From positions 1 to 63,239 of the forward strand of contig NZ_JAHCST010000054.1 in the NCBI RefSeq assembly GCF_018476525.1: DNA of 63,239 nucleotides. The letters are read 5' to 3'. Positions 1,386 to 23,001 of the stretch are shown in pieces. How positions within the stretch are numbered: the stretch's first letter is position 1; each line of letters opens with the position of its first letter. The position numbers were made by a program, and so were the translations under genes. This DNA is from Acrocarpospora catenulata. GTDB taxonomy: Bacteria; Actinomycetota; Actinomycetes; Streptosporangiales; Streptosporangiaceae. Under the pieces are notes generated by a model. That model was not told the DNA's origin, did no database searches, and saw only the letters and a program-made list of their open reading frames with translations.

Positions 1386-1775
1386 TTACCTGGACAGGTC
1401 CTCGGGCCCGAACGCGAACGGCAGGATGTCCGCCATGCGCCAGGGCCCCTCCGGCGTCTCCACCAGCAGTTCGGGCCCGCCGTGCTCGTACAGCAGCTGG
1501 CGGCAGCGCCCGCACGGCATCAGCAGCTCGCTGTGGCCGTCCACACAGGTGAAGGCGACCAGCCTGCCGCCGCCCGAGGCGTGCAGCGCCGACACCAGCC
1601 CGCACTCGGCGCACAGGCCCACCCCGTAGGAGGCGTTCTCCACGTTGCAGCCGACCACGATCCGCCCGTCGTCCACCAGGGCGGCGGCCCCGACCGGAAA
1701 CATCGAGTACGGCGCGTACGCGCGCGTCATCGCCTCGGCCGCGTGCGCCCGCAGCCCATCCCAGTCGATCGTCAT
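1386..1775 (-). CDS. cdd: Cytidine deaminase
   Basis: Hydrolytic deamination of cytidine and deoxycytidine to uridine and deoxyuridine. The 129-residue protein is the usual size of the small tetrameric form. The zinc site is complete: Cys55 and the catalytic Glu57 in the CAE motif, and Cys88 and Cys91 in PCGRC. The ATG overlaps the stop of the upstream permease gene (ATGA), and its own TAA directly precedes deoA, so it looks translationally coupled in the nucleoside operon. Its product feeds uridine and deoxyuridine to salvage and to the neighbouring phosphorylase. Confidence 0.95.
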   Translation of the reverse strand: MTIDWDGLRAHAAEAMTRAYAPYSMFPVGAAALVDDGRIVVGCNVENASYGVGLCAECGLVSALHASGGGRLVAFTCVDGHSELLMPCGRCRQLLYEHGGPELLVETPEGPWRMADILPFAFGPEDLSR

Positions 1776-3070: not shown

Positions 3071-4209
3071 ACCCCTGCTCCTTCCACCTGAGCCTGGGCC
3101 GGGGCCGACAGCTCCCTGCTGACACGACGCTGCTCGGCCGAGATCCGGTACCGGTGCACCAGCTCGTACGCCACGACAACGCACAGCACGATGACCCCTT
3201 GCATGATCGTGATGATCTCCGGCGAGACCTTGTGGAGGTTGAGGATGTTGCTGGAGGTGTCCAGGAACCCCCACAGCAGCGCGCCGAACGCCACGCCGAC
3301 CGGGTTGTTCCGGCCGAGCAGCGCGATGGCGATCCCGGTGAAGCCAAGACCGGCCGGGAAGTCGAGGCTGTAGGAGTAGGACGAGCCGAGCAACTGCGGC
3401 ATGCCGACCAGACCGGCGACGCCGCCGGAGATGACCATCGCCCAGACGATCATCTTCTTCACGTTCACTCCGCTGGCCACGGCGGCGCTCTCGGACCGGC
3501 CGGTGGCCCGCAGGTCGAAGCCGAACCTGGTGCGGTTGAGGAGCAGGTGGAAGCCGATGCCGACCAGGACGGCCAGCAGCAGCAGGCCGAAGACCTTGTT
3601 GGGCGCGCCGGGAATGAGCGAGATGCCGGGCACGTGCGCCGACTCGGGGATGGGCTTGGTGCCGATGTTGTTGCTGCCCGCCACCGGGACCGCCCACTGG
3701 GTGAGCAGCCAGGCCCCGAGGCCCGTGGCGATGGTGTTCAGCATGATCGTGGAGATGACCTCGCTGACCCCGCGCCGCGCCTTGAGCAGGCCCGCGATGC
3801 CCGCCCAGGCCGCGCCCACGGCCACCGCGACCACGATGATCAGCAGGATGTGCAGCGGTCCCGGCAGCGACACCGCGCCGCCCACGGCGGCGGCGATCAG
3901 CGCGGCCAGCCGGTACTGGCCGTCCACGCCGATGTTGAACAGGTTCATCCGGAAGCCGAGCGCCACCGCCATCGCCGACAGGTAGTAGGTGGTGGCGGCA
4001 TTGACGATCAGCGTGAGCGAGCGCGGCGTGCTGCCGTAGTCGATCATCAAGGTCAGGGTTTCGATCGGCGGGTTGCCGGTCACGACCAGTACCACCGCGG
4101 TGATCAGGCCGGCCATCAGGATGGCCAGGACCGGGGCGGCCAGCGACAGCAGCCCGGTCAGCTTGACCCGCCCCAGCAGGCGGTTGGTGAAGGTGTCGGG
4201 GACCGTCAT
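3067..4209 (-). CDS. Nucleoside ABC transporter permease (first permease)
   Basis: Inner-membrane permease of the same family as its downstream neighbour. The 380-residue product has about eight to ten hydrophobic segments and the conserved run GFRMNLFNIGVDGQ, equivalent to the NIGLEG segment in the partner. ATG at 4209 overlaps the stop of the ATPase gene (ATGA), so ATPase, both permeases and cdd appear translationally linked. The substrate is inferred to be nucleosides, from the Bmp-type binding proteins and from cdd and deoA in the same block; the sequence alone does not give purine versus pyrimidine preference. Confidence 0.93.
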   Translation of the reverse strand: MTVPDTFTNRLLGRVKLTGLLSLAAPVLAILMAGLITAVVLVVTGNPPIETLTLMIDYGSTPRSLTLIVNAATTYYLSAMAVALGFRMNLFNIGVDGQYRLAALIAAAVGGAVSLPGPLHILLIIVVAVAVGAAWAGIAGLLKARRGVSEVISTIMLNTIATGLGAWLLTQWAVPVAGSNNIGTKPIPESAHVPGISLIPGAPNKVFGLLLLAVLVGIGFHLLLNRTRFGFDLRATGRSESAAVASGVNVKKMIVWAMVISGGVAGLVGMPQLLGSSYSYSLDFPAGLGFTGIAIALLGRNNPVGVAFGALLWGFLDTSSNILNLHKVSPEIITIMQGVIVLCVVVAYELVHRYRISAEQRRVSRELSAPAQAQVEGAGV

Positions 4210-5729
4210 GCTGCCTCTCCCGCGCCGGTCATGGCCGAGCCGAGTTGCTGCGGGGTCACGTTCGCCGGGTCGACGTCCGCGACGATCCGGCCGCGCAGCA
4301 GGACCTTCAGGGTGTCCGACAGGCCGATCAGCTCGTCCAGGTCGGCCGAGATGAGCAGCACCGCCAGGCCGGCCGCCCGGGCCTCGCGCAGGTGGTCCCA
4401 GATCGCGGCCTGCGCGCCCACGTCCACGCCCCGGGTCGGGTGGGCCGCGATGAGCAGCACCGGATCGCCGCTCATCTCCCTGCCGACGATCAGCTTCTGC
4501 TGGTTGCCGCCGGACAGCGCCGCCGCGTCCACGTCGATGCCGGGGGTGCGCACGTCGTACTGCTCGACGATGCGCCGGGTGTCGGCGCGGGCACCCTTGC
4601 GGTCGATCCAGATGCCCTTGGTGTTGGGGGCCTGGGTCTGGTGGCCGAGGATCCGGTTCTCCCAGAGGGGGGCCTCCAGCAGCAGGCCGTGCCGCTGGCG
4701 GTCCTCGGGGATGTAGCCGACGCCGGCCTCGCGGCGGCGGAGCGTGGTCCAGTCGGTGATGTCCTTGCCGCCCAGGATGACGGTGCCGGTCGAGGCACGG
4801 ATGCCCATGATCGCTTCGACCAGTTCGGCCTGGCCGTTGCCCTCGACCCCGGCGACGCCGAGGACCTCGCCCCGGTGGATGGTGAGGGAGATGTCGTCCA
4901 GCAGCGGCCGCCCGCCGGTCTCGGCGGGCATGCACAGGCCCTTGACCTCCAGCGCCACCTCGTCGGTGACCGTGGACTCCCTGGTCTCCGGGCTGGGCAG
5001 TTCGGAGCCGACCATCAGCTCGGCCAGTTGCCGTGCGGTCACCGTGGCCGGGTCCACGCTGGCCACCGTGGTGCCCCGGCGGATGACCGTGATCGCGTCG
5101 GCGACCTTGAGCACCTCGTCCAGGTGGTGCGAGATGAAGATGATGGTGATGCCCTCGCGGACCAGGCCGTGCAGGTTGTCGAAGAGCTCGTCCACCTCGT
5201 GCGGCACGAGCACGGCGGTGGGCTCGTCCAGGATCAGGATGCGGGCGCCCCGGTAGAGGACCTTGAGGATCTCGACCCGCTGCCGCTGGCCGACGCCGAT
5301 GTCCTCCACCAGCACGTCCGGGTCGACGCCCAGGCCGTACGCGTCGGAGATCTGCTTGATCTTCTTGCGGGCGGCGCCGAGGTCGAGCGCGACCAGCGCT
5401 TTGCGTGGCTCGCTGCCGAGGACCACGTTCTCCAGGACGGTCAGGTTGTCGGCGAGCATGAAGTGCTGGTGGACCATGCCGATGCCGGCGGCGATGGCGT
5501 CCGCGGGGGTGTGGAAGGAGACGGGGGAGCCGTCGACGCGGATCTCACCCTCGTCCGGCCGCTGCATGCCGTACAGGATCTTCATGAGGGTGGATTTGCC
5601 TGCGCCGTTCTCACCGACGATGGCGTGGATGTGACCTTTGGTCACGCTCAGATGGATGTCGCGGTTGGCGACTACGCCGGGGAATCGTTTGGTGATTCCC
5701 TCCAGCGCGACCGCGGTCTGGGTGCTGAT
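4206..5729 (-). CDS. Nucleoside ABC transporter ATPase, duplicated ATP-binding cassettes
   Basis: Cytoplasmic ATPase that powers the Bmp-type nucleoside importer. Two cassettes are fused in about 507 residues: the first has Walker A GENGAGKST, signature GVGQRQRVE and Walker B LILDEPTAVL; the second has the degenerate Walker A typical of this family (GVEGNGQAE), signature SGGNQQK and AAHPTRGVDVG. No ATG or GTG lies near the expected N-terminus. The best candidate is ATC at 5729, five nt after a strong Shine-Dalgarno AGGGAGG (5735-5741). The only upstream standard-type alternative is TTG at 5780, which sits inside the loop of an inverted repeat and has no close Shine-Dalgarno. The product is certain; the start is unusual. 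Confidence 0.9.
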   Translation of the reverse strand: MSTQTAVALEGITKRFPGVVANRDIHLSVTKGHIHAIVGENGAGKSTLMKILYGMQRPDEGEIRVDGSPVSFHTPADAIAAGIGMVHQHFMLADNLTVLENVVLGSEPRKALVALDLGAARKKIKQISDAYGLGVDPDVLVEDIGVGQRQRVEILKVLYRGARILILDEPTAVLVPHEVDELFDNLHGLVREGITIIFISHHLDEVLKVADAITVIRRGTTVASVDPATVTARQLAELMVGSELPSPETRESTVTDEVALEVKGLCMPAETGGRPLLDDISLTIHRGEVLGVAGVEGNGQAELVEAIMGIRASTGTVILGGKDITDWTTLRRREAGVGYIPEDRQRHGLLLEAPLWENRILGHQTQAPNTKGIWIDRKGARADTRRIVEQYDVRTPGIDVDAAALSGGNQQKLIVGREMSGDPVLLIAAHPTRGVDVGAQAAIWDHLREARAAGLAVLLISADLDELIGLSDTLKVLLRGRIVADVDPANVTPQQLGSAMTGAGEAA

Positions 5730-5756
5730 CTCGGCCTCCCTGCTGGAATGGCCCCG

Positions 5757-5798
5757 ATTAGGACATGGCCGTGGACCCAAATCAGGCCATGTCCTAAT
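5757..5798. repeat. Perfect 14-bp inverted repeat before the ABC ATPase gene (operator or mRNA hairpin)
   Basis: Arms 5757-5770 (attaggacatggcc) and 5785-5798 match 14 of 14, separated by a 14-nt loop, with centres 28 bp apart. It lies about 16 nt upstream of the ATPase Shine-Dalgarno. It could be a repressor operator, since the distal arm overlaps a candidate -10 region, or an RNA hairpin controlling expression of the ATPase and permeases. No matching repressor gene is adjacent. Confidence 0.7.
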
Positions 5799-5823
5799 TA
5801 CATACAGTGATGGGGACAGTAAA
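5795..5823 (-). promoter_or_regulatory. Candidate promoter for the ABC ATPase/permease genes
   Basis: Reading the minus strand, TTTACT (5823-5818) is followed after 17 nt by the A/T-rich hexamer TAATTA (5800-5795). Match to consensus is only partial. It lies after the binding-protein hairpin and its -10 overlaps the inverted repeat at 5757-5798, as a repressible promoter would. Confidence 0.35.
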
Positions 5824-5825
5824 CC

Positions 5826-5856
5826 AAGGGCCCGGGGCTGACGCCACCGGGCCCTT
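5826..5856 (-). terminator. Hairpin terminator or attenuator after the Bmp lipoprotein gene
   Basis: A 10-bp GC-rich stem (aagggcccgg / ccgggccctt) with an 11-nt loop starts about 10 nt past the stop of the lipoprotein gene. There is no U-tract, which is common for actinomycete terminators. It could reduce read-through into the ATPase and permease genes, so the binding protein is made in excess, or protect the 3' end of its mRNA. Confidence 0.65.
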
Positions 5857-5867
5857 GCGCGTCATCG

Positions 5868-6941
5868 TCAGGCGCCGGTCGGAACCGTGATCTCACCGCT
5901 GATGATCTTGTTCTTGTACTCGTCGATCTGGGCCTTGATGTCGTCGATCTTGCCCCCGGTGAGGGAGTAGTCGACGCCGCCCGCCTTCAGGTCGTAGACG
6001 GTGGGGCCGGCCGTGGCCGAGCCGGAGGTGGCGTTCTTGATGAAGTCGAACACCGCCACGTCGACCTTCTTCAGCATCGAGGTGATGATGACGTCGGCGA
6101 CGGTCGGGTCGGCGGTCTTGGCCTGGTCGGAGTCGACGCCGATGGCCATGGCGCCCGCGGCCTTGGCGGCCTCGAACACACCGGCCCCGGAGCCGCCCGC
6201 GGCCTGGTAGACCACGTCGGCGCCCGCGTCGTACATGCCCTCGGCGGCCGTCTTGCCCTTGGCCGGGTCACCGAAGCCACCGAAGTCCGGCGGCTGGGTC
6301 AGGTACTTCTTCTGGATGGTGATGTCCGGCTTGACGGCCTTGGCGCCGGCCTCGTAGCCCGCGTAGAACTTCTTGATCAGCGGCACTTCCACGCCGCCCA
6401 CGAAGCCCACGTTGTTCTTGGTGGACTTGAGCGCGGCGGCCACGCCCACCAGGAACGAGCCCTGCTCCTCGGCGAAGAGCAGGTTGGAGATGTTCGCGCC
6501 CTTGGCGTCGGCGTCGTCCACGATGGCGAACTTGACCTCGGGGAACTCCGCGGCGACCTTGCTGATCGCGCCGGAGTAGGCGAAGCCGACCGCGATGACC
6601 GGGTTGAAGCCACCGGAGGCCAGCAGTCGCAGGCGCTCCTCCTTCTGCGCGTCGGTCTCGCCGTTGGCGGCCTCCACCTCGTTGACCTCGACGCCCAGCT
6701 CGGCCTTGGCCTTGTCCAGGCCGGCCGCGGCGGAGTCGTTGAAGGACTGGTCACCCCGGCCGCCGATGTCGTACGCCAGGCCGACCTTGGCCGCGGTGGC
6801 GGCCGGAGCGGAGGAGGCGGCGGAGGACGGCGCGCCGCTGGGCGCGGCGCCGGTGTCGTCACCACCACAGGCAGCGGCGGCCAGCAGCATGGCGCCCGCC
6901 GCGGACCCGGCGACGAACCTGCCAAATCTATTGCGGAGCAA
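5868..6941 (-). CDS. Bmp-family nucleoside-binding lipoprotein (copy 1)
   Basis: Extracellular, membrane-anchored substrate-binding protein of the BmpA/PnrA type delivering nucleosides to the adjacent ABC importer. I place the start at TTG 6941, six nt after GGGGAG. This gives a 357-residue precursor with a basic N-terminus, hydrophobic core and lipobox Cys25 in LLAAAACGG, followed by a Ser/Pro/Ala linker. The family segment AYDIGGRGDQSFNDSA follows. An upstream extension of the open frame has no signal peptide and is rejected. It is roughly 60% similar by eye to the copy upstream. It is followed by a strong hairpin and then the transporter genes. Confidence 0.92.
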   Translation of the reverse strand: MLRNRFGRFVAGSAAGAMLLAAAACGGDDTGAAPSGAPSSAASSAPAATAAKVGLAYDIGGRGDQSFNDSAAAGLDKAKAELGVEVNEVEAANGETDAQKEERLRLLASGGFNPVIAVGFAYSGAISKVAAEFPEVKFAIVDDADAKGANISNLLFAEEQGSFLVGVAAALKSTKNNVGFVGGVEVPLIKKFYAGYEAGAKAVKPDITIQKKYLTQPPDFGGFGDPAKGKTAAEGMYDAGADVVYQAAGGSGAGVFEAAKAAGAMAIGVDSDQAKTADPTVADVIITSMLKKVDVAVFDFIKNATSGSATAGPTVYDLKAGGVDYSLTGGKIDDIKAQIDEYKNKIISGEITVPTGA

Positions 6942-7102
6942 GTGGAACTCCCCTTCCGTGACGTCCAACTTCCGTCGCACGCGCGAAAGGAACGCACGGC
7001 AACCCTGCACGGAAGATAGTTCTTTGACCTGCAAGAACCCAAGCCGCGAACAAGTCCGCAACAGGTCCGTTATGCAGCTCACGCCACCTTGTGACCCGAT
7101 GG

Positions 7103-8128
7103 TCAGTGCGTGGGGACCTTGATCCGGCCGTCGATGATCTGCCGCTTCAGCTGGTTGAGCTGGGGGACGATGTCGGTCAGATGTCCGCCGGTGGTGGCGT
7201 AGTCGACGCCCCCGGCCTTCAGGTCGTAGACGACCGGGCCGGAGCGGAAGTCGCCCTTCACCACGCCGTGGATGAAGTCGAAGACCGCCACGTCCACCTT
7301 TTTCAGCATCGAGGTGAGGATCGACCCGCGGACCTCCGGGTCGGCGGTCTTGGCCTGGTCGGAGTCCACCCCGATGGCCCAGTCGCCCGTGTCCCTGGCC
7401 GCCTCGAACACGCCGCTCCCGGAGCCGCCGGTGGCCTGGAAGACCACGTCGACGCCGGAGTCGTACATGCCCTGGGCGGCGGCCCTGCCCTTGGCCGGGT
7501 CGGTGAAGCCGGACAGGTCCGGCGGGTCGCTCAGGTACCTGCTCCGCACCTCGGCCGGTTTGACATGCTGGATCCCGGCCCGGTAGCCGGCCTCGAACTT
7601 GTGCAGCTGCGGCACGTTCACGCCGCCGACGAAACCCAGCTTGTTGGTCCTGGACTTCAGCGCGCCCGCCGCGCCGACCAGGAAGGAGCCCTCGTTCTCG
7701 GCGAAGAGCAGGTTGCTGATGTTGGGGCCGCGCGCCCCGGGGTCGTCCACGATGGCGAACTTGACATCGGGGAACTCCGCGGCGACCCTGCTGACCGCGC
7801 CGGAGTAGACGAAGCCCACCGCGATCACCGGGTTGTGGCCCTCCTTGGCCAGCGCCCGGAGCCGCTCGGCCCGGTGGCCGTCGGTCTCCCCGTTCCCCGC
7901 GGGCATCTCCGTGGTCTCCACGCCGAGCTCGGCCTCGGCCCGGTCCAGGCCGAAGGCGGCCGAGTCGTTGAAGGACCTGTCGCCGCGGCCGCCGATGTCA
8001 TAGGCCAGCCCGACCCTGGTGGGGGGTCCGTGGGTGGGGATCTCCACGGGGTCGTCCTCGATCGCGCACCCGGCCGCGACCAGCGCGGCCAGCAGTGTGG
8101 TCGACGCAGTCGCTCCGATCGGGCGCAC
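7103..8128 (-). CDS. Bmp-family nucleoside-binding lipoprotein (copy 2)
   Basis: Second BmpA/PnrA-type binding lipoprotein, 341 residues, directly upstream of copy 1 and clearly its paralogue (shared AYDIGGRGD-SFNDSA, VKFAIVDD, NISNLLFAE, KKVDVAVFDFI and LKAGGVDY segments). The GTG start has a Shine-Dalgarno AAGGAG 7 nt upstream. The signal peptide ends in the lipobox LVAAGC with Cys21. It lacks the long low-complexity linker seen after the lipid Cys of copy 1. The two copies may offer the same transporter different ligand ranges; this is inference. The 161-nt gap between the copies contains no convincing promoter or riboswitch. Confidence 0.92.
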   Translation of the reverse strand: MRPIGATASTTLLAALVAAGCAIEDDPVEIPTHGPPTRVGLAYDIGGRGDRSFNDSAAFGLDRAEAELGVETTEMPAGNGETDGHRAERLRALAKEGHNPVIAVGFVYSGAVSRVAAEFPDVKFAIVDDPGARGPNISNLLFAENEGSFLVGAAGALKSRTNKLGFVGGVNVPQLHKFEAGYRAGIQHVKPAEVRSRYLSDPPDLSGFTDPAKGRAAAQGMYDSGVDVVFQATGGSGSGVFEAARDTGDWAIGVDSDQAKTADPEVRGSILTSMLKKVDVAVFDFIHGVVKGDFRSGPVVYDLKAGGVDYATTGGHLTDIVPQLNQLKRQIIDGRIKVPTH

Positions 8129-10876: not shown

Positions 10877-11971
10877 ATGCGAATAGGGACGCGCGCCCTC
10901 GGGGTCGCGGCACTGACATGTGCGCTGGTCACCGGCCAGGTGACCCCTGCCAGAGCGGAGACCGTGGGCGGTGAGCGGCTGGCCGGGCGCGGCTTAGTGC
11001 TGCCGGACGGGGTCAAGGCGCCGGAGAGCAAGGCCGCCGCGTTCGTGATCGCCGACGCCGACACCGGCCAGGTGCTGGCCGCCAAGAACCCGCACGGGCG
11101 CTTCCTCCCGGCCAGCACGCTCAAGGCGCTGACCGCCCTGACCCTCATCCCGAAGCTGGACCGCAAGAAGCTGGTCCGGCCCAGCCAGGAGGCGTGCAAC
11201 ATCGAGGGCAGCGCGGTCGGGCTGGTGCCCGAGCCGATCTACAAGGTGGACGACCTGTTCCGCGCCCTGCTCATGGTCTCCGGCAACGACGCCGCGCACG
11301 CCCTGGCCGAGGCCAACGGCGGCCTCACGGTCACCCTGGCCGACATGAACGCCGAGGCCCGGCGGATCCAGGCGCTGGACACCGTGGCCAAGACGCCCAG
11401 CGGCCTGGACGAGCCCGGCCAGAGCAGCTCCGCCTACGACCTGGCGCTGATCGCCCGGGCGGGCCTGAAGATCCCCGCCTTCCGCTCCTACATCTCCACC
11501 AAGACCGCGCACTTCCCCGCACCCGAGGGCTACTACGAGATCGGCAACCACAACAAGCTGCTCTGGAAGTACGACGGCATGGTCGGGGTCAAGAACGGCT
11601 GGACCTCCAAGGCGCTGGGCAGCTTCGTCGGCGCGGCCCGGCGGGACGGGCACACCGTCATCGTCGCCATCATGCGCCACGAGGGCTACTTCTGGGAGGA
11701 GGTGGCCGGGCTGCTGGACTGGGGCTTCGCGAACCGGGGCAAGGTCACCCCGGTCGGCACCCTGGTCGACCCGGTGCCGCCGCCCGCGCCGACCCCGCAG
11801 CCCAAGCCGAAGCCGGCCCGCATCCCGGCCTCCGGCGCCGCCGCGGCGGCCAAATCCACCGAGAGCGGCAGCGGCATGCCCCTGGTGGCCACGCTGGTGC
11901 TGGGCGCCGGGCTGGCCGGCGGCCTGATCTGGCTCGGGATCGGCCTGCGCCGCCGGAGCCGCCGTCAGTAG
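10877..11971 (+). CDS. D-alanyl-D-alanine carboxypeptidase (S11, PBP5-like)
   Basis: Secreted, membrane-tethered penicillin-binding protein that trims the terminal D-Ala of peptidoglycan stem peptides. The 364-residue protein has a signal peptide with a likely cut after TPARA (residue 27), the three serine-peptidase motifs SxxK (ASTLK), SGN (VSGNDAA) and KNG (VKNGW), a Pro/Lys linker and a C-terminal transmembrane helix followed by a basic tail. I chose the ATG at 10877, which leaves a standard signal peptide; in-frame GTG 10853 and ATG 10865 are alternatives. The 3' end overlaps the convergent YihY gene by 7 nt. Confidence 0.93.
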   Translation: MRIGTRALGVAALTCALVTGQVTPARAETVGGERLAGRGLVLPDGVKAPESKAAAFVIADADTGQVLAAKNPHGRFLPASTLKALTALTLIPKLDRKKLVRPSQEACNIEGSAVGLVPEPIYKVDDLFRALLMVSGNDAAHALAEANGGLTVTLADMNAEARRIQALDTVAKTPSGLDEPGQSSSAYDLALIARAGLKIPAFRSYISTKTAHFPAPEGYYEIGNHNKLLWKYDGMVGVKNGWTSKALGSFVGAARRDGHTVIVAIMRHEGYFWEEVAGLLDWGFANRGKVTPVGTLVDPVPPPAPTPQPKPKPARIPASGAAAAAKSTESGSGMPLVATLVLGAGLAGGLIWLGIGLRRRSRRQ

Positions 11972-12906
11972 GCGCCCGTCGAGGGCATGGGGCTGGGTTC
12001 CGGCGGCGGCCCGAGGCCGGCGGTCGCCGTCCAGGACGCGGCGTAGAGGATCACCCGGGCGGACAGGTTGATCCACACCAGCAGCCCGACCACCACCGCG
12101 AACGCGCCATAGATCGGATTGTGCAGGGTGCCGGCGAGCACCAGCGCGGCCAGCTGCTTGAGCACCCCGAACAGCACGGCGCCCAGCAGCGCCCCGCGCA
12201 GCAGCACCCGCGGCGGCTGGTCCAGGTTGGCCACCCAGCCCAGCAGGATCAGGAAGAGCAACACGTCCGCGCCGAGGCTGACCAGCAGGCCCACCACGGC
12301 CACGCCGAACCCGGCCGGTGCGGAGCCGGCCAGGCCCAGCCAGCCGGTGACCGTGGCGGTGGCCCCGGTGGCGAAGCCGGAGACCAGCACCGAGGCGAGC
12401 ATGGTGATCCCGCCCAGCAGCAGCGCCACCAGGTCCCGCAGCTTGGCGACGAAGAAGTTGGGCTGTGGCTCGGCGGTCATCCAGATCCGGCGGAACGCGG
12501 TGCGCAGCGCGTCCATCGCCCCCAGACCGGCGTAGAGCAGGCCGAGCAGGCCGATGGCGCCGGCGCCGGCCCGGGCCTCGGCCAGGCGGTCGAGCTGGAG
12601 CTGGTCCGCCAGGCCGGGCAGCTGCTGGTTGATCGCGGTGGAGATGGTGGCCTTGGCGCCGGGGGTCAGCCAGCCGAAGCTCACCGCGTACCCGAACAGC
12701 GCGAAGACCAGGGCGATCAGCGGGAAGAAGGACAGGAAGGCGAAGTAGGTGACCGCGCCCGCCAGGTGGTCACCGTCCTGCACCTGGTACCGCTGCACGG
12801 TGCGGATCAGGTGGTCGATCCAGTGGTACCGGATGCGGGCGCGCTCGGTGAGGTCGCGACCGCGCGCCTTGAGTGCTTCGAACCGTTCCTGGAAGCGCGC
12901 GATCAC
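11965..12906 (-). CDS. YihY/BrkB-family integral membrane protein
   Basis: Polytopic membrane protein of the YihY (formerly virulence factor BrkB / 'RNase BN') family, 313 residues with about six hydrophobic helices and the family segments AGAVTYFAFLSFFPL and ARVILYAASW. Molecular role is not established for the family. GTG start at 12906, 10 nt after the trpS stop and with only a weak Shine-Dalgarno, so it is probably co-transcribed with trpS. Confidence 0.92.
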   Translation of the reverse strand: MIARFQERFEALKARGRDLTERARIRYHWIDHLIRTVQRYQVQDGDHLAGAVTYFAFLSFFPLIALVFALFGYAVSFGWLTPGAKATISTAINQQLPGLADQLQLDRLAEARAGAGAIGLLGLLYAGLGAMDALRTAFRRIWMTAEPQPNFFVAKLRDLVALLLGGITMLASVLVSGFATGATATVTGWLGLAGSAPAGFGVAVVGLLVSLGADVLLFLILLGWVANLDQPPRVLLRGALLGAVLFGVLKQLAALVLAGTLHNPIYGAFAVVVGLLVWINLSARVILYAASWTATAGLGPPPEPSPMPSTGAY

Positions 12907-12916
12907 ACTGCGCTCT

Positions 12917-13924
12917 TTACCCCGCGGTGGGCAGGAATCCCACGTTCGCCCTGACCTTCTCCATCGTCTCGGCCGCCACCGCGCGGGCCTTGGCGGCGCC
13001 GATCGCGAGCATGCGGTCCAGCTCGGCCTCGTCGCCGAGGAGCTTCTCGGTGCGCTCCCTGATCGGCTCGAAGAGCTCGACGATCGCCTCGGCCACCTCC
13101 TTCTTGAAGGTGCCGTAACCCTGGCCCGCGTACCTGGCCTCCAGCTCGGGGATCGGGGTACCGGTGATCGCGGACTGGATGCGGAGCAGGTTGGTGATGC
13201 CCGGCTTGTTCTCCTCGTCGGCCACCACCTCGCTGCCCGTGTCGGTGACCGCGCGCATCACCTTCTTACGGAGCGGGCCCGGCTGCTCCAGCACGTCCAG
13301 GATGCCCTGCGGGCTGGAGGAGGACTTGGACATCTTGGCGGTCGGGTCCTGGAGGTCGGTGATCTTCTCGACCTCCTTGAGGATGAACGCGCTGGGCACC
13401 GTGAAGGTCGGCCCGTACCGGGTGTTGAAGCGCTGCGCCAGGTCGCGGGTGAGCTCCAGGTGCTGCTTCTGGTCGGCCCCGACCGGGACCTGGTCGGCCT
13501 GGTAGAGCAGGATGTCGGCGGCCTGGAGGATCGGGTAGGTGAACAGGCCGACGCCGGCCGCGTTCTCCCCCGCCTTGGCGGACTTGTCCTTGAACTGGGT
13601 CATCCGCCCGGCCTCGCCCATGCCGGTCTGGCAGATCAGGATCCAGGCCAGCTCGGAGTGCTCCCGCACGTGGCTCTGCACGAAGACCGACGAACGCTCC
13701 GGGTCCAGGCCGCAGGCGAACAGCTGCGCGGCGGCCACCCGGCTGCGGCGGCGCAGCTCGGGCGCGCTGGGGTGCACGGTGAGCGCGTGCAGGTCGACCA
13801 CCATGTAGAAGGCGTCGTGCGAGTCCTGCAGCGCGATCCACTGGCGCACCGCGCCCAGATAGTTGCCGAGGTGGAAGGAATCGGCAGTGGGCTGGATACC
13901 GGACAGTACGCGAGGACGGGCCAT
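12917..13924 (-). CDS. trpS: Tryptophanyl-tRNA synthetase
   Basis: Class I aminoacyl-tRNA synthetase charging tRNA-Trp in the cytoplasm. The 335-residue protein has the HIGH-type motif HLGN at residues 18-21 and the KMSKS loop (AKMSKS), and is normal in length. ATG start at 13924, 14 nt after the stop of the upstream CNNM/HlyC gene. With the downstream YihY gene it forms a compact minus-strand group. Whether this is the only trpS of the genome cannot be told here. Confidence 0.97.
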
Positions 13925-13938
13925 GACACCTGATTCTG

Positions 13939-15258
13939 TCAGGAGTCGCCGGGCGGTAGCGACTTGGAATCGTCAGCGAGGGGTCGAGGAGTGACCCGGA
14001 CCAGGGCGACCCGGCGGCCGTCCAGCTCGGTCACGGTCAGTGTGGCCCCGGGGCCGTCCACCGACTCGCCCACCGCGGGCAGGTGGCCGAGCACCGCCAT
14101 CATGTAGCCGCCGAGCGTCTCGTACGGCCCCTCGGGCAGGCGGATGCCGGTCTCCTCGGCGAAGTCCACCAGCCGGACCAGGCCCTCCACCTCGATCTCC
14201 CCGGCGATCCTGCGGACCGAGTGGTCGTCCACGTCGTACTCGTCGCGGATGTCGCCGATCAGCTCCTCGACCAGGTCCTCCAGGGTCACGATGCCGGCGG
14301 TGCCGCCGTACTCGTCGACCACGATGGCCAGGTGGTGGCCCTCGTCGCGCATCTCGGAGAGGGTGATCAGCACCCGCTTGCTGCCGGGCACCAGCTTGAC
14401 CGGCCGGATCGGGACCACTTCGCTGATCGGGTCCACCCGCCCGGTGAGCACCGGATCGAGCAGGTCCCTGACGTGCACGAACCCCACCACGTCATCGTAT
14501 GACCCGCGGAACACCGGGAACCGTGAGTACGGCATGCTGGCCGCCAGCACCGCCGCCTCGGCCAGCGTGGTGTCCGCGGCCATGAACTCCACCTCGGTCC
14601 TGGGCAGCATGACCTCGCGGACCTGCCGTTTCCCCGCCGCGAAGACCTCGCCGACGATGCGCCGCTCGTCGTCGGTGAGGTCGGTGTGCCCGGCCACCAT
14701 GTCGCGCAGTTCCTCGGTGGAGACCTGCTCCCTGTCGGTCTCGGGGTTGCCGCCGAGCAGCCGGACCACCCCATCGGTGGATTTGGAGAGCACCCAGATG
14801 ACCGGCCGGGAGAGCGTGGCCACCAGGTCCAGGAAGGGGGCGACCACCAGCGAGAGCGACTCGGCCCGCTGCCTGGCCAGGCGTTTGGGGGCGAGCTCCC
14901 CGAGCACCAGGGAGATGTAGGAGATGGCCAGGGTGACCAGCGCCAGCGAGATCACGGGGGTGGCCTGGCCGGCCAGCCCCCACTGTTCCAGCACCGGGTC
15001 CAGCTCGCCGGTAAGCCGGTCGGCACCGAAGGCGGCCGAGAGCACGGTGGCCACGGTGACCCCGATCTGCACCGCCGACAGGAACCGGTTGGGGTCGTGG
15101 GCCAGCTTGGCCACCCGGGCGCCGCGCCGGCCCAGCGTGGCGAGCCGGCGCACCTGGCTCTCCCGTAGCGAGACCATGGCCATCTCCGCCGCCGCGAAGA
15201 ACCCGCCCACCAGGATGAAGAGCAGCACGATGGCGATGTTGACGAGAACTGTGTTCAC
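13939..15258 (-). CDS. CNNM/HlyC-CorC family membrane protein with CBS pair
   Basis: Hemolysin-C-like protein of the family linked to Mg2+/Co2+ transport. The 439-residue product has an N-terminal DUF21 region with four hydrophobic segments (about 1-170), a CBS pair (about 200-330, with [15 protein letters not shown] and [16 protein letters not shown]) and a C-terminal CorC_HlyC domain (about 345-425). GTG start at 15258 with GGAAG upstream. Ion transported is not deducible from sequence alone. Confidence 0.93.
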
Positions 15259-16333: not shown

Positions 16334-16474
16334 ATGGGTTTCCCCCTTCGCGACCTGCTCGTCAAGGTGGGGCTGGTGACGCTCATCGTGCTGGGGAGTG
16401 TGCTGGCCGCCGCCGGGGTGGTCTTCGCCACCGGCGGCGCCGCGGCGGAACAGTCCGTCAAGTGCCCCGGTTGA
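16334..16474 (+). CDS. Putative 46-aa secreted or single-span membrane peptide
   Basis: A small open frame that a simple length cutoff would miss. The product starts MGFPLRDLLVKVGL, continues with a hydrophobic stretch of about 20 residues (LVTLIVLGSVLAAAGVVFAT) and ends in a short tail with one Cys (VKCPG). It looks like a single transmembrane helix or a signal peptide. There is no Shine-Dalgarno, but a good promoter ends 11 nt before the ATG. Codons are strongly GC-ending. The 3' end overlaps the convergent DUF11 gene by 17 nt. No family is recognised. Confidence 0.6.
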   Translation: MGFPLRDLLVKVGLVTLIVLGSVLAAAGVVFATGGAAAEQSVKCPG

Positions 16475-17315
16475 TCGCCATACGCAGCCGGGCCTGGTTG
16501 TTGGCCGGACGCCGGTCCCCCAGGCCCCGCGAGTAGACGGTCGCCCGCGCCTGGACCGGCCGTGTCCGCAGCACGCGGGCCGGGGCCCGGAAGGCCAGCT
16601 GGAACCGGGTCTGCCCACCTGACCTGATCGGCTGCAGCGCGCAACCGACGAAACCGTTGAACGCGTGGCAGCGGGCCCCGGTCCCGGCCAGGAACTGGGC
16701 CCGGCCTGCCTGCAGGTAGACGAAGGCGTCCCGGACCACCCGGGGCCCCCGGTTGGCCACCACGGCCTCCATCGTGAAACGTTCACCCGGACGGGGCACC
16801 CCGCGCGCCGGGCGGAACCGGACCGCCAGGTCCGCGCCCTCGTCCACGTTGGTGACCGCCTCCGCCTGGTTGTCCTCGTCGTGGCCGTCGAGCACCTCGG
16901 AGGTGAGCGAGGCCTGCGCCCGGAGCGGGCCGCGCGCGCTCGGCCGGACCAGGGCGGTGATGGTGACCCCGCCGGAACCCCCGGCCAGCACGTCCCGCGG
17001 CGAGCGGCAGACCACCTCGTTGTAGCCGCGGCCGGGGCGGCACTCGCTCACGTCCACGCTCATGATCTCCACCTCGCGCGGCAGCGTGACGGTCAGCACC
17101 GGAAGCACCGCGTCGCCCGGGCCGGAGTTGTGCACCATGACCCGGTAGACCAGCGGCTGGCCCGGCTGGGCGACCTGCGGCGTGGCCTCAATCCGGACAT
17201 TCAGGTCGGCGCCGCCCCACGGCGCGGTCCGCCCGTCGCCCCGTTCAGCCAATGCGGGTCTGGCCAGTACGCCGGTGAACAGGCAGACGACAACGGCAAC
17301 GACCCAGCGACCCAT
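16458..17315 (-). CDS. Secreted DUF11-domain protein
   Basis: Exported protein of unknown function, 285 residues. It has a clear signal peptide (MGRWVVAVVVCLFTG to ARPALA, cleavage near residue 23) and two Ig-like repeat units typical of DUF11 or conserved-repeat proteins: VRIEATPQVAQPGQPLVYRV, with NSGPGDAV, and a second unit near VRFRPARGVPRPGERF, with NRGPRVV. Four Cys in two pairs could form disulfides. ATG at 17315 follows GGGGGAG. There is no LPXTG or membrane anchor, so it is probably released or wall-associated. It lies 73 nt after the kinase-binding-domain gene on the same strand. Confidence 0.85.
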   Translation of the reverse strand: MGRWVVAVVVCLFTGVLARPALAERGDGRTAPWGGADLNVRIEATPQVAQPGQPLVYRVMVHNSGPGDAVLPVLTVTLPREVEIMSVDVSECRPGRGYNEVVCRSPRDVLAGGSGGVTITALVRPSARGPLRAQASLTSEVLDGHDEDNQAEAVTNVDEGADLAVRFRPARGVPRPGERFTMEAVVANRGPRVVRDAFVYLQAGRAQFLAGTGARCHAFNGFVGCALQPIRSGGQTRFQLAFRAPARVLRTRPVQARATVYSRGLGDRRPANNQARLRMAINRGT

Positions 17316-17388: not shown

Positions 17389-19257
17389 TCAGCAGGCCAG
17401 CCGCTCCGGCGTGTCCCGGCCCGGGGTGAAGGCCACCTTGCCGAAGAACCGGGCCATGAGCCGCTTGGCGGTGCCGCTCTCGTACAGGTCGAGGATGGCC
17501 TTGCGGACCGGCTCGCAGGTGCGGGTGTCGCCCTTGGGCAGGCCCACCGCGTACCGCATGCCGCCGATGGCCAGACCCATCACCCGGAACTTGAGAGTCT
17601 CCTCGCGGTTGGCGAAGCCGGCCAGGATGAGGTCGTCCCCCGGGACCGCGTCCACACCGCCCCCCTTGAGGAGGTTCATGCAGTCGCCGTAGTTGCCGGC
17701 GTGGACCAGCGTCATGTTCACCCGGGCCAGCACCTGCTCGGCGCTGGTGCTGTTGTCCCGGTCGCACAGGCGCTTGCCGGTCAGCGCGCCCACCCCGTCG
17801 ATCCCGGCGTCCTCCCGGACCAGCACGTCCGTCCTGGCCACGTAGTACGGCCCCGCGAAGGTGACCTCGTCGTTCTTGTAGTCGTCGTAGGAGTAGGTGG
17901 CCACCACCAGGTCCACCTGACCGGTCTTCAGGGCTTCCGCCCGGGTGAACCGGCTGACCGTCCGGAAGGTGACCCCTTCGGCGGGCACCCCGAGCTTCCT
18001 GGCGATGTACTTGGCCACCTCGACCTCGAAGCCCTGACTGCTCAGGCTCAGGTTGGGCAGGTCGTCGCGGACTCCGACCACCAGTTTCCCGGTGGCGGCG
18101 GCCTTGTCGAAGACCGAGGCGTACGCCGTCGGGGACGGCGGGGCGGTGGTGGGCACGAGGGCGCTGACCGTGACCGACGGGGAGGGACCGACGCCGGAGT
18201 TGTCCAGGGCCTGGGTGGCGTAGGCCACTCCGGCGATGACGGCCACTGCGGCCCCCACCGCAACAGCCGCCGGTATCCAGCGACGTTTCGGCCTGGCCGG
18301 GAGCAGGGTCGGAGGCACGGGCACGCCTGGGCCGATCCGGGCCTCTAACGGGGGCGGCGGACCCGAAGCGTGATTTATCCGAGGAATGGGCCCTGTTTCG
18401 GGGTTGGCGATGTGGGCGCCCTCGGTGAGCACCACCGTGGAGGCGCCCCCCACGTCGGTCCGCCCCAGCAGCCGCAGCAGCAACTGGTCGGCGGTGGGCC
18501 GGGCGGCGGACGCCTTGGCCAGGCTGGCCTGGACCACGCCGCGCAGCGGCTCGGGCAGCTCGCTCACGTCGATGTCGTGGTTGAGCACCCGGTTCAGCAC
18601 GGCCGCGATGGAGTCCCCGCCGAAGGCGGCCTTCCCGGTCGCCGCGTACGCGATGGTCGCGCCCCAGGCGAACACGTCCGTGGCGGGGCCGATGGCGTCC
18701 CCGGAGATCTGCTCGGGCGCCATGTAGGCGGGGGTGCCCACCGCGCGGCTGGTGATCGTGCCGGTGGAGTCGATGATCCGGGCGATCCCGAAGTCCACCA
18801 CCCGGGGGCCGTCCGCCGCCAGCAGCACGTTGTCCGGCTTGAAGTCGCGGTGCACGATGCCCGCCTGGTGGATGGCGGTCAGCGCGGTGGCCGTGCCCAC
18901 CGCCAGCCGCTCCAGCATCACCCCGCGCAGCGGCCCTGAGCTCTCCACGGTGTCCCGCAGCGAGGGCCCGTCGATGAACTCGCTGGCGATGTAGGGCGTG
19001 TCGCCCTCCAGGTCGGCGGCCATCACCCGGGCGGTGCAGAAACTGGCCACCCGCTGGGCGGCCCTCAACTCGCGGGCGAACCGGGAGCGGGCGATGGCGT
19101 CACCGGTGAACCTGATGTGCAGGAGCTTGATCGCGACCTGTTCCCCGGCCTCGTTGACGCCCAGGTAGACGACGCCCTGGCCGCCCTCGCCGATGCGGCC
19201 GGACAGCGTGAAAGGACCGAGCTGGTTCGGATCCCCCGGTCCGAGCGGCACGATCAT
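17389..19257 (-). CDS. Ser/Thr protein kinase fused to an extracellular glutamate-type binding domain
   Basis: A 622-residue one-polypeptide receptor kinase. Residues about 12-270 form a Hanks-type kinase with GEGGQGVVYLG, the VAIKLL lysine, the catalytic HRDFKPDN, DFGIAR and MAPEQ. A linker leads to one transmembrane helix (about 328-348, after basic KRRW). Residues about 385-615 form an SBP_bac_3 domain (GVRDDLPNLS, GFEVEVAKYIARKLGV, SGTAKRLMARFFGK) like the GlnH/GluB binding proteins of glutamate importers. The topology predicts that an extracellular amino acid controls a cytoplasmic kinase. No permease or ATPase gene is adjacent. ATG 19257. Domain calls are firm; the ligand is inferred. 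Confidence 0.93.
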   Translation of the reverse strand: MIVPLGPGDPNQLGPFTLSGRIGEGGQGVVYLGVNEAGEQVAIKLLHIRFTGDAIARSRFARELRAAQRVASFCTARVMAADLEGDTPYIASEFIDGPSLRDTVESSGPLRGVMLERLAVGTATALTAIHQAGIVHRDFKPDNVLLAADGPRVVDFGIARIIDSTGTITSRAVGTPAYMAPEQISGDAIGPATDVFAWGATIAYAATGKAAFGGDSIAAVLNRVLNHDIDVSELPEPLRGVVQASLAKASAARPTADQLLLRLLGRTDVGGASTVVLTEGAHIANPETGPIPRINHASGPPPPLEARIGPGVPVPPTLLPARPKRRWIPAAVAVGAAVAVIAGVAYATQALDNSGVGPSPSVTVSALVPTTAPPSPTAYASVFDKAAATGKLVVGVRDDLPNLSLSSQGFEVEVAKYIARKLGVPAEGVTFRTVSRFTRAEALKTGQVDLVVATYSYDDYKNDEVTFAGPYYVARTDVLVREDAGIDGVGALTGKRLCDRDNSTSAEQVLARVNMTLVHAGNYGDCMNLLKGGGVDAVPGDDLILAGFANREETLKFRVMGLAIGGMRYAVGLPKGDTRTCEPVRKAILDLYESGTAKRLMARFFGKVAFTPGRDTPERLAC

Positions 19258-19368
19258 GGTTTCCCCACGTCTCTGTTTAAGTACTGACGAGGAGCACTTT
19301 ACGACCAGCAGACCCAGGTGTCGGATTCCGAGACCGCGTCGTGATCAGGGTCGTGATCGAGACCATGA

Positions 19369-19392
19369 ACGGGCCGTCGCGCGACGGCCCGT
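19369..19392 (-). terminator. 24-bp perfect palindrome after icd (terminator)
   Basis: acgggccgtcgc is followed directly by its reverse complement with no unpaired spacer. It lies about 32 nt past the icd stop and before the kinase gene on the same strand, so it probably ends icd transcription. There is no U-tract. Confidence 0.6.
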
Positions 19393-19423
19393 CCGGGGGA
19401 TGCCATGATGTCCTGCCGCGAGG

Positions 19424-20638
19424 TCAGGCCATCTTCTTCTTGAGGTTCTCGTCCAGCGCCGCCAGGAAGTCCTGCGTGGTCAGCCACTCGGCGTCGCCGC
19501 CCACCAGGAGGGCCAGGTCCTTGGTCATCTGGCCGCCCTCCACGGTCTCCACGCAGACCTGCTCCAGCTTCTCCGCGAAGCCGATGACCTCCGGCTGGTT
19601 GTCCAGCTTGCCGCGGTGCTGGAGGCCACGGGTCCAGGCGAAGATGGAGGCGATCGGGTTGGTGGAGGTGGGCTTGCCCTGCTGGTGCTGGCGGTAGTGC
19701 CGGGTGACCGTGCCGTGCGCGGCCTCGGCCTCCACGGTCCGGCCGTCGGGGGTCATCAGCACCGAGGTCATCAGGCCGAGCGAGCCGAAGCCCTGGGCCA
19801 CCACGTCGGACTGCACGTCACCGTCGTAGTTCTTGCAGGCCCAGACGTACCCGCCTTCCCACTTCAGCGCGGCGGCCACCATGTCGTCGATCAGCCGGTG
19901 CTCGTAGATGAGCCCCTTGGCCTCGAAGTCGGCCTTGAACTCGGTCTCGTAGATCTCCGCGAAGAGGTCCTTGAACCGGCCGTCGTACGCCTTGAGGATG
20001 GTGTTCTTCGTGGACAGGTAGACGGGGAACTCGCGGGCCAGGCCGTACCGGAACGAGGCGCGGGCGAAGTCGCGGATGGACTCGTCCAGGTTGTACATGG
20101 CCAGCGCCACGCCGCCGCCGGGGAAGTCGAAGACGTCGAGCTCGATGGGCTGGCTGCCGTCACTGGGGGTGAAGGTGAGGGTCAGCGCGCCGGCGCCGGG
20201 GACCTTGATGTCGGTGGCACGGTACTGGTCGCCGAAGGCGTGACGGCCGACCACGATGGGCTTGGTCCAGCCGGGCACCAGGCGGGGCACGTTGGACATG
20301 ATGATCGGCTCGCGGAAGATCACACCGCCGAGGATGTTGCGGATCGTTCCGTTGGGGGAACGCCACATCTTCTTGAGGCCGAACTCCTCCACCCGGGCCT
20401 CGTCGGGGGTGATGGTGGCGCACTTGACGCCGACACCGTGCTCCTTGATGGCGTTCGCGGCGTCGATGGTGACCTGGTCATCGGTGGCGTCGCGGTGCTC
20501 GATGCCGAGGTCGTAGTACTTCAGGTCGACGTCGAGGTAGGGCAGGATCAGCTGGTCCTTGATGAACTGCCAGATGATCCGGGTCATCTCGTCGCCGTCA
20601 AGCTCGACGACCGGACCCGCTACCTTGATCTTGGGCAT
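19424..20638 (-). CDS. icd: NADP-dependent isocitrate dehydrogenase
   Basis: Oxidative decarboxylation of isocitrate to 2-oxoglutarate in the TCA cycle. The 404-residue protein belongs to the dimeric eukaryotic-like type: it starts [20 protein letters not shown], with the substrate-site segments [15 protein letters not shown] and RSPNGTIRN and the late [11 protein letters not shown]. The ATG at 20638 follows AAGGGG; an in-frame extension upstream adds a non-family N-terminus and is rejected. It lies in the conserved actinobacterial citrate synthase / DUF3017 / icd neighbourhood, but a hairpin downstream isolates it from the kinase gene. Confidence 0.96.
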
Positions 20639-21005: not shown

Positions 21006-22127
21006 TTAGCGTTCGTCGATCTGCTTCCACTTCTGGTCGCGCTCGCCGATGTACTCGCTGTCCGGGCGGATCAGCCGGTTGTCGGCGTGCTGTTCGATCA
21101 CGTGGGCGGTCCAGCCGGCCATCCGGCTCACCGAGAAGACCGGGGTGAACAGGTCGGTGGGGATGCCCAGGTAGTGGTAGACGGTCGCGGCGTAGAAGTC
21201 CACGTTGGGGAACAGGCCCTTCTCGGCGAAGACGACCTCCTCCATCTCCAGCGACATGCGGAAGTAGGTGTCGTCCCCGGACGCCTCGCCCAGCTCCCTG
21301 GACATCTTCCGCAGGTGGGTGGCCCGCGGGTCCTCGGTCTTGTACACCCGGTGGCCGAAGCCCATGATCTTCACGTGCGCGGCGAGGCTGTCCCGCACCG
21401 CCTGCGCCACCCCGGCCGGGTCCAGGCTCTCCAGGGTGCGCATGACCTGCTCGTTGGCGCCGCCGTGCAGGGGGCCCTTGAGCGTGCCGATGGCGGCCAC
21501 CACGGCCGAGTGCATGTCGGACAGGGTGGCCGCGCAGACCCGGGCCGCGAACGTCGAGGCGTTCATGGTGTGGTCGGCGTGCAGCACCAGGCACTCGTCG
21601 AAGATCTCGACCTCGCGCGCGGACGGCTCCCGCCCGGTGATCTGGAGCAGGAAGTTGGCCGCGACGCTCAGCCCGGGGTCCGGGTCAGTGATCTTGGTGC
21701 CGGTGCGCGCCGCGTGGTACTGGGCCACCAGGATCGGCTGCTGCGCGGTCAGCCTGGCCGCCTTGCGCAGGTTGGCGTCGGCCGCGTTGGAGTCCTTGTC
21801 CGGGTCGTCGGCGCTGGCCAGCGAGACCAGCGTGCGCAGGGCCTCCATCGGCTCCTGCTTCTCGGCGATCTCCGTGATGTTGGCCTGCACCAGATTGCCG
21901 AGGCTGCGGCCGCGGACCAGTTCGGCGCCGTATGAGGCGAGTTGGTCGCGGGTGGGAAGGTTGCCGTGCTGGAGTAGGTGGGCGGTTTCTTCGAAGGTGG
22001 TACGTCCGGCCAGGTCGTGGATGTCGTAGCCACGGTAGAACAGCCGGCCGGCCTTCCCGTCGATGTCGCTCAGCGCGGTCGACGCTGCCACCACATCGGC
22101 GAGGCCTTTGGTTGGCTTGTCCGCCAT
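21006..22127 (-). CDS. citA: Citrate synthase (CitA-type)
   Basis: Condenses acetyl-CoA and oxaloacetate to citrate. The 373-residue protein has both catalytic histidine regions (KGPLHGGAN and GFGHRVY) and the RMAGWTAHVIEQ segment. Its length and the short N-terminus match the CitA-like second citrate synthase of actinobacteria rather than the 430-residue hexameric form, so methylcitrate synthase activity is a possible alternative. ATG 22127 has GGAGGA 7 nt upstream. It lies next to DUF3017 and icd, so the first and third oxidative TCA steps are encoded together. Confidence 0.93.
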   Translation of the reverse strand: MADKPTKGLADVVAASTALSDIDGKAGRLFYRGYDIHDLAGRTTFEETAHLLQHGNLPTRDQLASYGAELVRGRSLGNLVQANITEIAEKQEPMEALRTLVSLASADDPDKDSNAADANLRKAARLTAQQPILVAQYHAARTGTKITDPDPGLSVAANFLLQITGREPSAREVEIFDECLVLHADHTMNASTFAARVCAATLSDMHSAVVAAIGTLKGPLHGGANEQVMRTLESLDPAGVAQAVRDSLAAHVKIMGFGHRVYKTEDPRATHLRKMSRELGEASGDDTYFRMSLEMEEVVFAEKGLFPNVDFYAATVYHYLGIPTDLFTPVFSVSRMAGWTAHVIEQHADNRLIRPDSEYIGERDQKWKQIDER

Positions 22128-22308: not shown

Positions 22309-23001
22309 GTGGAGGGGCCGTTCATACGGATCGAGGACACCGGCGAGCTGGTGCCCTTACGCCCCGAGATCACCACCATCGGCCGGGGCCGAGGGGCCGA
22401 CATCCGGCTGACGGATCCGAGCGTGTCACGTTTACACGCCGAATTCGTCCGCCGCGGGCCGTACCTGTACGTCGTGGACCTGGGCCTGTCCAGGAACGGC
22501 ACGCGGGTGAACGGGCGGCCGATCGCCCGGAGGGTGCTCGACGACGGCGACGTCGTCTCGTTCGGCGCCGCCCGGACCAGGGTCGGCGGGGTGCCCCGCG
22601 AGGACATCGCGCCCGAGGTCGAGCTCCGGCGGGCAGCCGCCCCCGAGCTGACCCGGCGCGAGGTCGACGTGCTCACCTCGCTCTGCCGTCCGGCGCTGTC
22701 CGACGAGGCGTTCGTCGCCCCGGCCACCGCCCGGGAGATCGCCGACGACCTGGTGGTGACCGAGGCGGCGGTCAAGCAGCACCTGCTGCGGCTCTACCAG
22801 AAGTTCCGCATCCCGGAGGGCACCAACCGGCGCACCCGCCTCGCCAACGAGGTCGTCGCGCTGGGCCTGGTCCGGCCGACCCCGGTGGTCCCGCCGCAAC
22901 GGGCGACCGAGGCCGGTTCCGCACCCTCCGGAGCCGCCGGAACTCCGGGCGCGCCACCGCAGTCCGCCACGGGCACATCGGCGGGCCGCCGGGCGAGCTG
23001 A
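22309..23001 (+). CDS. FHA-domain protein with C-terminal LuxR-like helix-turn-helix
   Basis: 230-residue regulator. Residues about 8-95 are a clear FHA phosphothreonine-binding domain (ITTIGRGRGADIRL, SVSRLHAEF, LSRNGTRVNG). Residues about 112-190 look like a LuxR-type HTH (LTRREVDVL, TAREIADDLVVTEAAVKQHL). A Pro/Ala-rich tail follows. GTG start with GGAGGAA at good spacing. Two TTA leucine codons (22357-22359 and 22432-22434) fall in the FHA part, which in Streptomyces would suggest bldA-tRNA control. It is likely a partner of Ser/Thr kinases such as the two in this window; this is inference. Confidence 0.88.
   Translation: MEGPFIRIEDTGELVPLRPEITTIGRGRGADIRLTDPSVSRLHAEFVRRGPYLYVVDLGLSRNGTRVNGRPIARRVLDDGDVVSFGAARTRVGGVPREDIAPEVELRRAAAPELTRREVDVLTSLCRPALSDEAFVAPATAREIADDLVVTEAAVKQHLLRLYQKFRIPEGTNRRTRLANEVVALGLVRPTPVVPPQRATEAGSAPSGAAGTPGAPPQSATGTSAGRRAS

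Follow-up and report, generated by a model that had tools for sequence, protein, structure and literature searches.

What does a kinase that carries its own SBP domain, and whose gene sits among genes of the TCA cycle, sense and control? The question is raised by a gene in a 63,239-nucleotide stretch of Acrocarpospora catenulata DNA, hereafter the window, which the earlier note had read as an amino-acid receptor kinase that would couple external glutamate directly to TCA-cycle flux. The open reading frame, the Pfam matches, the hydropathy scan and the AlphaFold2 model agreed that a kinase domain, one membrane helix and an SBP_bac_3 domain lie in this single gene (Table 1; third-position GC of the frame, 0.94), and the merged sensor-kinase architecture was thus upheld; the gene thereby fits the SBP-kinases named in the accessible text of PMC6069109, which unite a Ser/Thr kinase and an SBP domain, and in its own case a membrane segment separates the two. 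Residues 327-345 form the best hydrophobic 19-mer between the two domains (mean hydropathy 2.16), and AlphaFold2 placed a helix at residues 334-349 with low pLDDT. The pLDDT was 81 for the full chain, with low confidence at 289-376, and 95 for the SBP domain. The relatedness of the outer domain to GluB/GlnH was borne out by sequence and fold matches in the PDB: GlnH of M. tuberculosis was the second-best sequence match (E 1.7e-19) and the top fold match of the SBP model (6h2t), and the nearest solved folds were M. tuberculosis GlnH and a Glu-bound SBP of E. faecium. In the kinase part, GEGGQGVV, K44, HRDFKPDN, DFG and APE were all found, K44, HRD, DFG and PE being invariant columns across 33 aligned rows, and the motif set of an active Hanks kinase (Gly loop, Lys, HRD, DFG, APE) is complete in the predicted protein.

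Table 1. Positions of the features discussed, numbered in the window unless a locus is named
Feature	Position	Strand	Evidence
SBP-receptor serine/threonine kinase gene	17389..19257	-	622 aa ORF, ATG start, Pfam domains
Hanks kinase domain, residues 17-260, predicted intracellular	18478..19209	-	Pfam Pkinase PF00069, E 3e-37
Single transmembrane helix, about residues 327-349	18211..18279	-	Hydropathy scan and AlphaFold2
SBP_bac_3 domain, GluB/GlnH type, residues 392-607, predicted extracellular	17437..18084	-	PF00497, E 1e-18, above cut-off
Lys461 codon, place of GlnH Arg169 (alpha-carboxylate contact)	17875..17877	-	Alignments; contact from the accessible text of PMC6069109
Arg439 codon, place of GlnH Arg147 (side-chain carboxylate contact)	17941..17943	-	Alignment
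Asp541 codon, place of GlnH Asp250 (amine/carboxyl-end contact)	17635..17637	-	Alignment
icd, NADP isocitrate dehydrogenase, upstream neighbour	19424..20638	-	NF006156, 771 bits
Citrate synthase	21006..22127	-	TIGR01800, 461 bits, above cut-off
FHA-domain protein, weak LuxR-type HTH match, divergent from citrate synthase	22309..23001	+	PF00498, E 1e-17; PF00196 under cut-off
Secreted-looking DUF11 protein, 73 bp downstream of kinase	16458..17315	-	PF01345, E 2e-14
Hairpin, 12-bp perfect GC, icd-kinase gap; possible terminator without U-tract	19367..19394	-	Fold; weak
Paralogue SBP-receptor kinase and aceE	L053:7986-9794 and 11514-14264		Pfam (L053)

Relatives were sought in 150 genomes of the family and by a scan of genome contigs (best 80 kept), which gave at least 68 open reading frames with both kinase and SBP domains, at least 61 of them distinct after repeats had been removed. 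Twenty further fusions from other genomes brought the set to 81, and after two duplicates had been taken out 79 sequences, the window protein included, were aligned; with 79 distinct fusions collected, the joining of kinase and SBP is not a chance event. Their hosts comprise Acrocarpospora (the closest among the matches listed), Herbidospora, Microtetraspora, Nonomuraea, Microbispora, Streptosporangium, Planobispora, Planomonospora and Sphaerisporangium. In a set of 61 fusions, every one has a Gly loop of the form G.GGQG as well as HRD, DFG and A/S-PE, and all but one show the VAIK-type Lys pattern. A search of the open-licence literature, partly judged from titles and abstract openings, returned no paper on this SBP-kinase lineage.

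The search for orthologues and their neighbours that the earlier note had proposed found the neighbourhood conserved across many genera, and the tie to TCA genes that it had drawn from icd and citrate synthase just upstream (together with a small DUF3017 gene) was confirmed. Thirty-three loci with an icd, galE or CNNM match were compared, many of them cut by their ends and one (L082) admitted solely through a weak galE match; a fused SBP was present in 30, citrate synthase in 28, icd in 27, the FHA-HTH gene in 26 (84-99% identity over the matched stretch), DUF11 in 21 and mdh in 18. Around the fused kinase (30 loci) the cluster reads folD-FHA-citrate synthase-icd-kinase-(mdh)-(DUF11)-galE-CNNM, not every gene being found in each. 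Where present, mdh lies downstream of the kinase, directly or past a gap, and it is not in the kinase cluster of the window; two Acrocarpospora relatives likewise show none there. The gap between icd and the kinase measures 166 bp in the window and up to several kb in relatives, and with a hairpin in the former and such distances in the latter, the two genes need not share a transcript. The whole-stretch z-score of the hairpin was only -0.75, and a sigma-70/terminator scan returned one promoter-like match and no terminator-like site, none at the hairpin included. The statement that no transporter genes lie nearby held in part: no SBP_bac_3 amino-acid ABC operon adjoins the kinase among the neighbours scanned, but the window does encode a CNNM protein (13939-15258) and, about 9 kb from the kinase, Bmp/PnrA-type ABC transporter genes (1772-8128, minus strand; two SBPs, an ATPase and a permease). 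The latter adjoin a pyrimidine nucleoside phosphorylase.

To place the cluster in a wider frame, 20 genomes, for the most part more distant ones, were sampled from the 66 of the family that have an icd match. The present kinase lay near icd at two of these 20 loci, both with the SBP (L256, L257), and not at the other 18; less similar kinases (33-48% identity) occurred within 15 kb at L262, L273 and L274, and at 7 of the 18 distant loci without the kinase beside icd, mdh (78-82% identity) immediately follows icd. In other families, no match to the kinase domain was obtained at E 1e-8 (15 loci, of 35 class genomes with an icd match). These comparisons are most simply explained by an insertion of the kinase gene downstream of icd within a single branch of the family, often placing it between icd and mdh. 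All 20 of the more distant family loci carry the FHA-HTH gene and 0 of 15 outside the family do, so that it is older than the kinase insertion; its product is a candidate phospho-partner, or phospho-dependent regulator of citrate synthase. In a paralogous SBP-kinase clade, all 7 loci whose flank is long enough have the kinase one gene from aceE, the gene for pyruvate dehydrogenase E1 (besides L053, at L051, L052, L070, L071, L073 and L074; matches of 92-100%). Since two SBP-kinase paralogues adjoin central carbon genes, a metabolic role becomes more likely, although inherited gene order is no proof. Collectively, the tie of the receptor kinase to central carbon metabolism is well supported, and both the linkage of icd and kinase in the citrate synthase-icd cluster of many Streptosporangiaceae and the aceE-linked paralogue are new.

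A related logic is realised in the GlnH-GlnX-PknG-GarA/OdhI pathway, in which, according to the accessible parts of PMC6069109 and PMC9769921, a GlnH-type SBP feeds a Ser/Thr kinase with TCA-cycle control as the output. That pathway is distributed over several proteins, whereas the kinase and sensor of the window are one polypeptide, in which the rubredoxin and TPR domains of PknG have no Pfam match. The A. catenulata assembly has no PknG_TPR match and two congeners have one; overall, with five weak partial matches counted as absent, 18 of the 30 genomes with a fusion and 36 of the 70 remaining ones have a PknG_TPR match (P = 0.51). A replacement of PknG by the receptor kinase was considered and rejected, as the two are not associated and congeners carry PknG_TPR. 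Because both co-occur in genomes, the receptor kinase supplements PknG and does not take its place. The A. catenulata genome also encodes an FHA protein with an N-terminal zinc-ribbon-like stretch (L186, G000:C1:301548-301739), which we take to be GarA/OdhI-like.

The SBP group nearest to the outer domain of the fusions is that of GluB, the SBP of a glutamate ABC transporter. In a tree of the SBP domains only (quick method, midpoint root, long branches flagged), all 79 fusions lay on one side of a branch with an SH-aLRT of 85, in a starred group that also held 20 GluB-like SBPs and three SBPs of the A. catenulata genome and whose branching order is not settled. The Cys pairs C498/C526 and C581/C622 as well as R439 are common to the window protein and 20 of 20 GluB-like SBPs, and C581/C622, at one point considered a novel Cys pair, was dropped on this ground. 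The GluB-like SBPs differ from the fusions in that all 20 keep Arg169 and Thr249 (GlnH numbering) and exist as proteins of their own, 19 in open frames of 285-376 aa and one (L183) in a frame of 590; the GluB-like copy of the A. catenulata genome on contig C9 adjoins two permease genes and an ABC ATPase. On another contig of that genome, C180, two SBP_bac_3 genes (L133, 10079-10960, and the adjacent gene) lie near MacB-type ABC and peptidoglycan-binding genes, with no kinase or amino-acid permease match among the 10 ORFs scanned there.

The accessible text of PMC6069109 lists S164, R169 and D250 of GlnH as contacts to the ligand amine/carboxyl and R147, W232 and T162 as contacts to its side chain, and the alignment placed S456, K461, D541, R439, Y523 and T454 of the window protein at these six positions in that order. 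The check for missing ligand contacts thus came out divided: R439, T454, S456 and D541 are kept, whereas Arg169 has become Lys461; the Trp232 place holds a Tyr, as it does in the GluB-like SBPs. Across the 79 fusions, the R147 position is R in all, the D250 position D in 72 and E in 7, the T162 position T in 74 and the S164 position S in 54; D542 is likewise kept in all 79. The W232 position is Y in 59 fusions, as it is in 20 of 20 aligned GluB-like SBPs. The R169 position behaves differently from R147 (87th against 0th percentile of entropy among 260 columns), with R at canonical loop length in 15 fusions, K in 14, other residues in 10 and a loop shortened by 2-3 residues in 40; R169 was counted by loop position, the alignment column giving 17 of 79. 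An Arg occurs somewhere in 10 of the 40 shortened loops, and 18 of the 79 fusions have neither K nor R in the whole loop. In the same alignment, the Arg is conserved in 20 of 20 GluB-like SBPs, in 8 of 8 SBPs of the A. catenulata genome and in 4 of 4 StpK7 proteins (treated below). Two further SBP_bac_3 genes of that genome, L004 and L011, fell under the profile threshold and were left unaligned, the loop Arg being present in both as judged by eye; L010 repeats a stretch of L009. Immediately before D250, 78 of the 79 fusions have Gly where 20 of 20 GluB-like SBPs have Thr. The R/lost state at R169 takes 7 changes on the tree. R568 was considered as a stand-in for the lost R169 and dropped, since R occurs there with or without R461 (59 and 16 of 79). 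This pattern of residues across the fusions indicates a pocket that is constrained yet changed, and the predicted binding pocket of the family is remodelled relative to GlnH/GluB, likewise a new finding.

As the earlier note proposed, the protein may be a plain receptor kinase for glutamate or aspartate, with GlnH-GlnX-PknG condensed into one chain and Lys461 taking over from Arg169, a reading that we regard as possible but doubtful. Lys is able to bind a carboxylate, the other contacts noted above are conserved, the best PDB matches include GlnH and 5eyf, an SBP with bound glutamate, and the aligned relatives from Acrocarpospora and Herbidospora carry K or R in the R169 place; the change in the window being mild, Glu or Asp are still possible ligands of the window protein, and the fusions that retain Arg, in a canonical or shortened loop, fit as well. 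Against it stand the 40 shortened loops set beside invariant Arg in the GluB-like SBPs and the SBPs of the same genome, the 18 loops free of K and R, and the exchange of Thr for Gly before Asp250. Because the alpha-carboxylate Arg is mostly lost in the fusions, the ligand is probably held differently from free L-glutamate in GluB. The claim of 'external glutamate' sensing is therefore unsupported as stated, weakened rather than refuted, the alpha-carboxylate Arg being Lys461 in the window and mostly replaced, or its loop shortened, in the family.

The outer domain is also missing altogether from some members. At the same cluster we found seven kinases without the SBP, in all of which the Lys, HRD, DFG and APE motifs are kept; they were picked for short frames and hence give no frequency, L067 was counted once as the same locus as L194, and L197, examined alongside, has the SBP. 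Four of them (L191, L195, L196 and L198), measured from where the match starts, run to 283-291 aa and show no membrane helix in the tail, L193 and L194 end at a membrane anchor, and L192 has a helix and a short unrelated tail. The Gly loop is intact in six of the seven and altered in L196 alone. No SBP match was obtained in the seven loci, and the roughly 140-330 bp between each kinase stop and the next matched gene leave no room for an SBP. In the kinase tree the SBP label takes 5 changes, at least 4 of them forced by starred branches, with L196 on a long branch; these would correspond to one gain and about four losses. The tree thus points to repeated loss of the SBP with the kinase retained at the icd locus, a new observation, and the SBP is probably ancestral in the family and dispensable. 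Since the seven SBP-less relatives keep the kinase in place, the outer sensor is not essential to the role of the kinase.

Such losses, together with the erosion of R169, would also be expected if the outer domain no longer bound a small ligand and served as a protein- or wall-contacting dimerisation module, the kinase being set by other inputs. The TM-score of the model, 0.76 to the unliganded 3zsf_B compared with 0.71-0.72 to ligand-bound GlnH, leans the same way, AlphaFold2 being indecisive on conformation. A dead pocket, however, should lose R439, D542 and T454, whose near-complete conservation makes this explanation unlikely in our judgement. A separate reading, in which a small ligand is bound, holds that the family senses an acidic amino acid in decarboxylated form, GABA or beta-alanine for instance, and signals to a TCA-cycle switch, since R439 and T454 (side-chain carboxylate) and D541 (amine side) are kept and the alpha-carboxylate contact is dropped; we offer it as speculative and rather improbable. 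If true, compounds from soil or plants would be reported to this switch, while the aceE-linked paralogue would monitor the entry of pyruvate. Several lineages would then have shed the receptor part and been left with a TCA kinase that is either soluble or anchored in the membrane.

The one-polypeptide design itself is already known, MSMEG_1200 and a further 260 InterPro entries with kinase and SBP in one chain being described in the accessible text of PMC6069109. MSMEG_1200 of Mycobacterium smegmatis is StpK7 (NCBIfam NF052427), a model that spans kinase and SBP and has four above-cut-off matches here, in open frames of 600-663 aa; the accessible parts of two reviews tie StpK7 to phage TM4 and to a BREX-like island via MSMEG_1198. 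In the SBP tree, the StpK7 SBPs grouped with L001 of the A. catenulata genome on the far side from the fusions, and given these different places the SBP of the fusions was most likely acquired separately from that of StpK7, which would make the present fusions a separate lineage. That the window protein is an StpK7 family member controlling a defence-like gene island, as the shared domain order might suggest, can practically be dismissed, considering that it scored 109 bits against a cut-off of 900 over residues 10-220 only (the kinase part), that the SBPs lie in different parts of the tree, with the R147 position Ile in 4 of 4 StpK7s as opposed to R in 79 of 79 fusions, and that its neighbours are TCA genes.

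We therefore favour, with moderate confidence, a membrane receptor kinase with a GluB-like outer domain, a small carboxylate ligand and an output to central carbon metabolism. In the mechanism that we propose, the extracellular domain would close on the ligand, and the resulting change would pass through the one membrane helix, probably via dimer rearrangement, to the intracellular Hanks kinase, whose output would serve metabolism around citrate synthase, isocitrate dehydrogenase and malate dehydrogenase; the FHA-HTH protein and the GarA-like FHA protein would be the first candidate substrates, and the enzymes themselves the second. Sequence comparison shows the architecture, the kinship of the SBP with GluB-like SBPs, the intact kinase motifs, the conserved cluster, the changed pocket and the absence of the SBP in some relatives at the same locus; that a ligand is bound in the first place, which way the signal runs and what the substrates are is inferred. 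The seven SBP-less kinases, the variable icd-kinase gap with its hairpin and the lack of mdh in the window cluster speak against the mechanism, and related genera can share a gene order by descent, without any functional reason.

The accessible text of PMC6069109 names as an outstanding question what it is that bacterial Ser/Thr kinases sense. In the present family a well-understood fold acts as the sensor and is fused straight to the kinase, and nature supplies the controls: at one and the same locus the kinase occurs with an SBP, with a membrane anchor only or free in the cytoplasm, and among the fusions there are pockets with and without the key Arg, so that the ligand, the direction of signalling and the metabolic output are directly testable.
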